DNA from: Segatella buccae ATCC 33574
Lineage (GTDB): Bacteria; Bacteroidota; Bacteroidia; Bacteroidales; Bacteroidaceae
Reading direction: 5' to 3'
Assembly (NCBI RefSeq): GCF_000184945.1
Contig: NZ_GL586311.1
Span: 802,731-866,730, forward strand
Length of the DNA stretch: 64,000 bases
Shown here: in pieces, positions 34,705-37,355 of the stretch
How the letters are laid out: every line of letters begins with the position of its first letter
Numbering within the stretch: position 1 is the first letter of the stretch
The notes under the pieces: model-generated
The model's input: the letters and a program-made list of their open reading frames with translations, nothing else
Database searches by the model: none
Told to the model about the DNA's origin: nothing
Program-made: the position numbers and the translations under genes

Positions 34705-35694
34705 TCAACTCAAACTCAACATCCGCTCGATGGGCTTCACGGCCTCTGCCGCTATTGCCGGATCGATTTCTACCGTAGGCCAATCATATTTCAGAGAGTT
34801 GTATATCTTCTCAAGAGAATTTTTCTTCATGTATTCGCACTCGTTGCAACTGCAACCAAGTCCTCCTTCGCTCACTTCGGGCGGCACGGGATAGAAAGTC
34901 TTTTCAGGGCAGGTACGCTCCATTTCGTGCAAGATGCCGGCCTCCGTGGCCACGATATATTCCTTACAATCGTGCTCCTGCGCATATTTGAGCATGGTGG
35001 CCGTACTGCCTTTTACGTCGGCAATGGCCAGAATAGAGGCCTTACACTCCAAATGGGCCATCACCACAGCCTCGGGATGAAGCTGCTTCAGTTTTACAAT
35101 TTCTGCCACAGAAAACTTCTCATGCACATGGCAGCCTCCGTTCCAGAGCAGCATTTTGCGCCCCGTCACGGAGTTGATGTAGTTGCCAAGATTATAGTCG
35201 GGCCCGAAGATGATTTTCGCATCCTCGGGGAAAGAATCGATTACTTGCTTGGCATTGCCCGAAGTGACCACACAATCGGTGAGTGCCTTCACGGCAGCTG
35301 TGGTATTGACATAACTCACCACCTGATAGCCGGGATGTTCGTCCTTGAATCTTTTCAAGTCTTCAGCCCTACAACTGTCGGCCAACGAACAGCCTGCCGT
35401 GAGGTCGGGACACAGCACCACCTTGTCGGGAGAGAGCAGTTTGCAGGTTTCGGCCATGAAATGCACACCGCACATCACCATCATCCGTGCGTCGGTCTCA
35501 GCCGCCTTACGGGCCAACGCCAACGAGTCGCCCACGAAGTCGGCTATCTCTTGGATGTCACCCACAGTGTAGTAGTGGGCCAGGATAATCGCATCTTTCT
35601 CCCTACACAGCTTTCTGATCTCGGTCTTCAAATCCAAAGTCTTGTCAACGGGTTCGTCGACAAATCCCTTTTCCATCCATTCTGTTTTCACCAT
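34705..35694 (-). CDS. nadA: Quinolinate synthase
   Basis: 329 residues. The three domains and the three [4Fe-4S] cysteines of NadA are present: MVMCGVHFMAETCK, LLWNGGCHVHEKF and GLGCSCNECEYM. AHYYTVGDIQEIADFVGDS near residue 40 is the substrate-binding signature. It condenses iminoaspartate with dihydroxyacetone phosphate in NAD synthesis. Its partners nadB and nadC are not in the window. The start is the first Met of MVKTEWMEKG; a second Met at residue 7 is possible. The upstream 600-bp gap contains a cluster of DnaA boxes. Confidence 0.97.
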   Translation of the reverse strand: MVKTEWMEKGFVDEPVDKTLDLKTEIRKLCREKDAIILAHYYTVGDIQEIADFVGDSLALARKAAETDARMMVMCGVHFMAETCKLLSPDKVVLCPDLTAGCSLADSCRAEDLKRFKDEHPGYQVVSYVNTTAAVKALTDCVVTSGNAKQVIDSFPEDAKIIFGPDYNLGNYINSVTGRKMLLWNGGCHVHEKFSVAEIVKLKQLHPEAVVMAHLECKASILAIADVKGSTATMLKYAQEHDCKEYIVATEAGILHEMERTCPEKTFYPVPPEVSEGGLGCSCNECEYMKKNSLEKIYNSLKYDWPTVEIDPAIAAEAVKPIERMLSLS

Positions 35695-35731
35695 CTTTTT
35701 ATTATTATCTTTTCTTTCACTTTAATTTTTA

Positions 35732-35739
35732 AAAAGATA
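35732..35739 (-). promoter_or_regulatory. Possible -7 box of nadA
   Basis: On the minus strand TATCTTTT lies about 38 bp before the nadA ATG. It matches six or seven of the eight consensus bases; no clear -33 box is seen. Confidence 0.35.
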
Positions 35740-35869
35740 TGGGAAGTATGATATGCCGTTGATAGGTTGATAACTTTCAAGTCTTTTTCTTGCTTATTCA
35801 GTAATCAACGTGTGGTGCTTTCTTATGAACATGCCTGTATCATATCTTTCGGTTGATTCATAATGTTTT

Positions 35870-36090
35870 AGCAGGTTTATCCACAATATCCCCATTCGGT
35901 GCAAAGTTAATAAGTTTATATCTTTTTATGAGGGAATTTCGTGGAAAAGTTTATCAAAATGGTTTCACAACCGTGTGGATATCCACAGTTTTCATGCTTT
36001 GTCCTTTCGAGTGTGGATATCCACAGAGTTATTGGTCGGGTTATGAGTAGGGTTTTCCCGACAGTTATCCACAAATCGGTGAATAACTTG
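35870..36090. other. Cluster of DnaA boxes, candidate replication origin region
   Basis: Within about 210 bp: perfect TTATCCACA at 35877-35885 and 36065-36073, and two identical 14-bp palindromes TGTGGATATCCACA at 35974-35987 and 36012-36025, each made of two overlapping boxes that differ from the consensus at one base. Weaker boxes occur at 35886-35894 (ATATCCCCA) and 36078-36086 (complement of TTATTCACC). AT-rich stretches lie on both sides (35690-35735 and 36095-36170). The pattern is what is expected of a bacterial oriC; no dnaA, dnaN or gidA gene is nearby, so the assignment rests on the boxes alone. It fills most of the gene-free stretch 35695-36296. Confidence 0.6.
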
Positions 36091-36198
36091 ATGGGTTGTT
36101 CTTTATTTTTATACTATTGTTTGTCATCGAAAAGTATATGAACCAAACATAAATATCTTGGCCCCCAAAAAGTGATAGTGTGTCTGTTGTGAAAGAAG

Positions 36199-36283
36199 TT
36201 TGCTGTCATGCTGTCATTTTTTAATGGATGGTAAATAGCTAATGGATAAGCTTTTAGAAGAAAAATGACAGCATGACAGCAAA
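36199..36283. repeat. 23-bp perfect inverted repeat with GTCATGC word, copy 2
   Basis: Left arm 36199-36221 begins TTTGCTGTCATGCTGTCAT; the exact complement lies at 36261-36283, with a 39-nt loop. The arm contains CTGTCAT twice and resembles the arm at 14454-14475. It sits just after the 3' end of the GT9 gene (36297); on the minus strand the right part ends in a short T run, so it can serve as its terminator. Confidence 0.85.
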
Positions 36284-36296
36284 TCGAATGAAAATT

Positions 36297-37355
36297 TTAT
36301 TTCTTGTTTTGTAGTACCATTTCCACCTTTTCCACAATCTGTTCGGGAAGTATGTTGTTCATGCAGGCGAAGTCGCCGCGCATGCAGGGCTTGTTGCCAT
36401 AGATGCTGCACGGGCGGCAGTCAAGGTCGGTCTGCACGGCATGTTGCGGATTTTGCCCCCAGCCCATGAAACCGGCGTAGGGGTGGGTGGCCCCCCAGAC
36501 ACTCACCACGGGGGTGGCGGTGAGCGAAGCCAAGTGCATGTTGGCACTGTCCATGCTGACCATCACATTGAGATGGCTCATCAGGATGAGTTCTTCTTCC
36601 AGTCCGTGAAGGGCAGCGGAAGCATTGATACAGTTGAGATAGTGGGCAGCCCATTCGTCGAGTACTTTCTTTTCCTTTTCACCGCCCCCGAAAAGGAAGA
36701 TGCGACAGGAGGGATGGCGACGGATAAGCAGGCCGATGACAGCCGACATGAGCTGTGGAGGATAGATTTTACCTTCGTGGGCCGCAAAAGGGGCAATGCC
36801 TATCCATTGTTGAAACTTTTTCTTTTCACCTATTATGTGAGTGGGAAGCAACCGGATGTTGCCGCCTCCATCTGGAAATATAGACTTGAAATTCAGCTTT
36901 ACCGGGTAGCCCAAACGGGCCAGTACGTCGGCATAATTTTGAAATGAAGTGGGCTGCTGTACGAGCCGTTTGCCATGGATAGCGGTGAGCCGACACTTTC
37001 CTGCGCGGTGCTTGTTGATGTGTGCCACCTTGTATTGTCCCAAATTGAATCTCATGCGCAGGTATTTGGAGCGCAACACATCGTGGAAATCGGCCACAGC
37101 AGTAAAGTTTTTGGCCATGAGCCGCCGGTAGAGGGCATTGAGTCCTTTTACCCCTTTGTATTCTTTCTTGATGTCAGCCTCCATGAACCCCACGTTGGGT
37201 GCCAGATGTTCGAAGAACGGGCGGGCAAAGGAACGGCTCAAGACAGTGACCCGAACATGCGGATACTGCTGCGCCAAGGAGTAAACCACGGGCACAGTCA
37301 TGGCCACATCGCCCATGGCCGAAAAGCGGATAATGAGGATATGTTCTGTTTTCAT
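36297..37355 (-). CDS. Glycosyltransferase family 9 (heptosyltransferase-like)
   Basis: 352 residues. The start HILIIRFSAMGDVAMTVPVV is the GT9 signature, and the C-terminal half has MVSMDSANMHLASLTATPVVSVWGATHP, the nucleotide-sugar-binding region of heptosyltransferases, followed by CRPCSIYGNKPCMRGDFACMNNI with clustered Cys residues typical of the family's tail. It most likely adds a sugar to the lipopolysaccharide core on the cytoplasmic side of the inner membrane. It is followed on the minus strand by the GTCATGC inverted repeat, and preceded 45 bp upstream by the DUF4254 gene. Confidence 0.93.
   Translation of the reverse strand: MKTEHILIIRFSAMGDVAMTVPVVYSLAQQYPHVRVTVLSRSFARPFFEHLAPNVGFMEADIKKEYKGVKGLNALYRRLMAKNFTAVADFHDVLRSKYLRMRFNLGQYKVAHINKHRAGKCRLTAIHGKRLVQQPTSFQNYADVLARLGYPVKLNFKSIFPDGGGNIRLLPTHIIGEKKKFQQWIGIAPFAAHEGKIYPPQLMSAVIGLLIRRHPSCRIFLFGGGEKEKKVLDEWAAHYLNCINASAALHGLEEELILMSHLNVMVSMDSANMHLASLTATPVVSVWGATHPYAGFMGWGQNPQHAVQTDLDCRPCSIYGNKPCMRGDFACMNNILPEQIVEKVEMVLQNKK

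Follow-up and report, generated by a model that had tools for sequence, protein, structure and literature searches.

The gene-free region upstream of nadA

The window, the whole stretch of 64,000 nucleotides analysed here, spans positions 802,731-866,730 of contig C1, which accounts for 3,266,225 bp of the 3,284,105-bp assembly of the source genome. Within it, nadA and a glycosyltransferase family 9 (GT9) gene border a stretch that the original prediction, made from the sequence of the window, described as gene-free over about 600 bp and put forward as a candidate chromosomal replication origin. The distance between the two genes measures 602 bp. The stretch contains perfect, palindromic and weak DnaA boxes together with AT-rich DNA (Table 1).

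Table 1 Features of the proposed origin region and its neighbours (window coordinates)
Feature	Coordinates	Strand	Basis and remarks
nadA, quinolinate synthase; neighbour, outside the origin	34705..35694	-	PF02445, E 3e-116
Gene-free region with the proposed origin	35695..36296	none	602 bp, 66% A+T; ORFs, Pfam, composition
DnaA box TTATCCACA	35877..35885	+	Exact sequence match; points toward the nearly invariant element
Nearly invariant AT-rich element AAAGATATAAACTTATTAACTTTGCA, proposed unwinding site (inferred)	35900..35925	-	Alignment of relatives
Candidate promoter toward nadA: TAACTTTG, which fits the sigma-ABfr -7 consensus TAnnTTTG without mismatch	35902..35909	-	Sequence, alignment
Weak DnaA-like box TTTTCCACG	35940..35948	-	2 mismatches; points toward the element from the opposite side
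Palindromic double DnaA box TGTGGATATCCACA, copy 1	35974..35987	none	Sequence
Palindromic double DnaA box TGTGGATATCCACA, copy 2	36012..36025	none	38 bp from copy 1
DnaA box TTATCCACA	36065..36073	+	Exact sequence match
AT-rich flank, alternative candidate unwinding site	36095..36134	none	75% A+T; composition
GT9, heptosyltransferase-like gene; neighbour	36297..37355	-	ORFs, Pfam

The predicted coordinates of the two perfect boxes, which correspond to C1 838,607-838,803, were borne out base for base. No further exact copy of TTATCCACA exists in the window, in agreement with the claim that its other intergenic DNA lacks the motif; both boxes are on the + strand. Each of the two identical palindromes yields two overlapping ATATCCACA boxes in opposite orientation, and their start-to-start distance is 38 bp, again as described. 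A search of the whole 3.28-Mb assembly returned two copies of TGTGGATATCCACA, both at this site. No similar DNA was found in plasmids, and no Rfam family matched the site.

At the edge of the region (positions 36199-36283) lies an inverted repeat, TTTGCTGTCATGCTGTCATTTTT, whose perfect 23-bp arms enclose a 39-bp loop. The genome has related arms at about ten further sites, some of them likewise as inverted pairs. The repeat resembles dispersed small palindromic repeats of the MITE or REP kind rather than a component of the origin.

Box density and strand composition

Six DnaA boxes with at most one mismatch fall within 200 bp at the site. The maximum in 20,000 Markov-simulated intergenes of equal composition was four, and six were never reached. 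Elsewhere in the 2.04 Mb of C1 that was sampled as stretches (62% of the contig, with 0.6-1.1 Mb complete), there were never more than three boxes per 300 bp. The site therefore holds an intergenic DnaA-box cluster beyond chance, as expected of an oriC. It should be noted that exact copies of TTATCCACA are not in excess genome-wide (36 versus 49 for a reversed-pattern control), which would fit a chance grouping of DnaA-box-like words. However, such an accident is barely conceivable given the simulated maximum of four against the six observed, the coincidence of the boxes with the skew switch described below, and the retention of their position and spacing across Prevotellaceae. A chance cluster was rejected since the conservation data contradict it.

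The best two-breakpoint fit to the GC skew, based on 62% of C1, placed a change from negative to positive at 840 kb and a second breakpoint at 2.28 Mb. In the complete 0.6-1.1 Mb, the cumulative GC-skew minimum that the original prediction expected at the site was found at C1:838,450, 157 bp from the first box, with a changepoint at C1:839,001. The source genome thus shows the negative-to-positive sign change typical of an oriC. The minimum is a shallow basin with a block-bootstrap 95% interval of 790-889 kb. The minima of the T-A skew (861 kb) and of leading-strand 8-mers trained solely on distant DNA (855 kb) both lie within ~25 kb of the site. Between ~2.92 and 3.24 Mb, C1 carries a mostly positive GC-skew block within an otherwise negative arm, which may stem from a rearrangement, from integration of a replicon or from an assembly join.

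Coding direction is unchanged across the site and dnaA is located ~805 kb away (C1:33,384-34,748), consistent with the earlier remarks that gene orientation does not clearly switch here and that dnaA is absent nearby. A dnaA-linked origin was rejected, since the site adjoins neither dnaA nor dnaN and lies so far from the former.

In P. lacticifex, GC skew was weak over 40 sampled stretches, and its best breakpoints were 1.80 and 2.46 Mb versus 0.31 Mb for the nadA site. Of 17 matches to 16S rRNA in five genomes (the source genome, G227, G123, S. baroniae B14 and P. lacticifex), 16 were directed away from the candidate site. This test is weak, since 16-50% of positions per genome score as well, and the five genomes are related to one another. 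The sole exception was a short fragment in G123. By eye, the same direction was seen in G311, G187 and G314.

Conservation of the array and its relation to nadA

We compared 80 nadA loci, nearly all labelled Prevotellaceae. Within 700 bp upstream of nadA, boxes of the NTATCCACA form reached 38 times the density seen in the remainder of the loci, and all but four loci had at least one such box in this interval. An alignment of 20 of these upstream regions revealed a shared layout. In nadA orientation, it comprises, in order, boxes ~380 bp upstream, two copies of ATATCCACA with a spacing of 38 bp (at ~330 and ~290 bp), a weak TTTTCCAC, the nearly invariant AT-rich element and a box ~190 bp upstream. 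The box at 35877-35885, at about +38 from the element start, keeps its position in nearly all relatives compared, and TTTTCCAC, at the weak box at 35940-35948, is kept in most. Four loci (L263, L264, L265 and L267) carry several same-strand boxes ~12 bp apart, located ~103-160 bp before the element; this regular row is lacking in the window.

Among 30 nadA loci from across the order, exact boxes occurred in only a few and mostly as single copies, so the link to nadA is mainly a Prevotella trait. In two nadA loci from other families of the order (L185, 2676-2862; L207, 1203-1284), an exact DnaA box has close to it a block of the TGCAAAGTTAATAA type, in direct or reverse-complement form, a hint that a nadA-linked origin could be older than Prevotella.

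The array adjoins nadA in most of the family, and a perfect TAnnTTTG -7 box faces the gene. Both observations would suit a nadA regulatory region, in which the element serves as promoter of nadA and the boxes place the gene under DnaA control. The element does lie next to nadA in G227, G311, G144, G123, G209, S. baroniae B14 and P. lacticifex. However, in five other relatives (G187, G314, G161, G243 and G317) the element and the only nadA match are on separate contigs, and the nadA loci are without the box array. In G317 and G243, the boxes hold their spacing around the element and the adjoining gene is DUF3108, while in G161 both palindromes are present, 38 bp apart and away from nadA, among the matches listed. 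The boxes thus stay with the element in three of the five separated relatives, namely those that were read or listed. We consider nadA regulation as the explanation of the array to have virtually no chance, and rejected it as the sole function because the array is absent where nadA lies elsewhere.

The nadA genes of these five relatives are 58-61% identical to that of the window, and the separation may represent replacement of nadA rather than movement. In either case, the comparison indicates that the array is not tied to nadA. Since the separated nadA loci lack the array and the boxes remain with the element, the array follows the origin and not nadA. The original prediction would have been contradicted by boxes kept at nadA in genomes with an origin elsewhere; the opposite was seen, as nadA on another contig carries neither boxes nor element. 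The site is therefore conserved in relatives independently of its neighbour gene, as an origin should be.

The AT-rich element and the proposed origin

The AAAGATATAAACTTATTAACTTTGCA element was missed in the first reading of the window and was added by the alignment of relatives. It is single-copy in the source genome, even when up to three mismatches are allowed. At two or fewer mismatches, it was present in 19 of 28 sampled genomes of the same genus versus 2 of 171 genomes of the family's other genera. The other same-genus genomes had weaker matches in some cases and none in others, so the element is common and not universal.

The -7 consensus of sigma-ABfr promoters is TAnnTTTG (PMC7366714). 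TAACTTTG within the element conforms to it, and its only variable positions across relatives are the two nn. No TTTG was evident by eye near -33 of this candidate promoter. Because the -7 box is perfect and species variation is confined to nn, the element is probably also a promoter, directed toward nadA in the window and, in G317 and G243, toward DUF3108. Part of its conservation may thus be conservation of the promoter. An origin role besides the promoter is suggested by the invariant AGATATAAACTTAT that precedes the -7 box and by the absence of the element elsewhere in the genome. A nearly invariant element with an embedded promoter -7 box is possibly new. More speculatively, and with considerable doubt, the element could be a Prevotella-specific origin-opening module, in which unwinding site and sigma-ABfr promoter are one sequence faced by DnaA boxes from both sides. 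If so, a single site would serve both for starting transcription and for opening the origin, and DnaA and RNA polymerase would be rivals or partners there.

The observed sites, which are unique in the source genome and conserved in spacing, together with the skew switch and the separation from nadA in relatives, lead us to conclude that the nadA-side array is very probably the oriC at which a Prevotella-type bacterium of the Bacteroidota begins to replicate its chromosome. The original proposal of an origin upstream of nadA is supported by the skew minimum, by the sole dense box cluster in the 2.04 Mb sampled and by an array conserved apart from nadA. Such an oriC is ordinary in kind, expected and not surprising.

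An array of this type might instead be a DnaA-titration or regulatory site, comparable to E. coli datA/DARS or to promoters under DnaA control, with the real origin elsewhere in the same part of the chromosome. The skew confidence interval of ~100 kb, the promoter-like -7 box within the array and the P. lacticifex skew, which gives no confirmation, are compatible with this. However, the complete 0.6-1.1 Mb contains no rival box cluster, the skew minimum is adjacent to the boxes (157 bp), and the array occupies one place per genome while following no particular gene. We therefore regard a titration or regulatory site as very unlikely.

Taking the array as oriC, we propose the following from established knowledge of DnaA and oriC. 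DnaA would occupy both strong boxes as well as the pair of palindromic double boxes, forming an oligomer over ~200 bp. The oligomer would extend toward the adjacent AT-rich DNA and open it, most likely at the element at 35900-35925. Two helicases would then be loaded, and replication would proceed bidirectionally to a terminus near C1:2.28 Mb.

Like the classical origins of E. coli and B. subtilis, the site has clustered TTATCCACA-type boxes next to AT-rich DNA and coincides with a skew minimum. It differs from them in not adjoining dnaA, dnaN or mnmG, in having two palindromic double boxes, and in a nearly invariant element that ends in a Bacteroidota promoter -7 box. The oriC of P. intermedia OMA14 chromosome I was predicted by Ori-Finder at a GC-skew transition far from dnaA, and dnaA remote from the origin was said to be common in Bacteroidetes (PMC4755523). 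By its description, that origin is like the site in having multiple DnaA boxes in less than 500 bp, a skew transition and a remote dnaA.

The basal unwinding system (BUS) consists of a DnaA box, a spacer and DnaA-trios (PMC8287927). The site shares with it a conserved AT-rich element within ~15-20 bp of boxes facing it on both sides. However, a strict DnaA-trio architecture is not evident. In a scan of both strands, neither perfect box was followed within 16 bp by three or more consecutive DnaA-trios, and the scattered degenerate trio matches at weaker boxes are subject to an uncertain strand convention for trios.

Bacteroidota origins lie away from dnaA and are thus easily missed. The open-access literature searched yielded a single predicted origin for Prevotella and none mapped by experiment. 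The signature described here, seen once in most sampled Prevotella genomes, could place origins in draft and metagenome-assembled genomes, which would be useful for growth-rate estimates from read depth. The element itself offers a short target for testing how Prevotella origins open.

In G295, a second copy of the element with two mismatches, TCATATAAACTTATTAACTTTGCA, was found on a different contig (C2:224659-224682). No box cluster surrounded it among the matches listed, and this copy is a candidate, or a decoy, for the origin of a second replicon.
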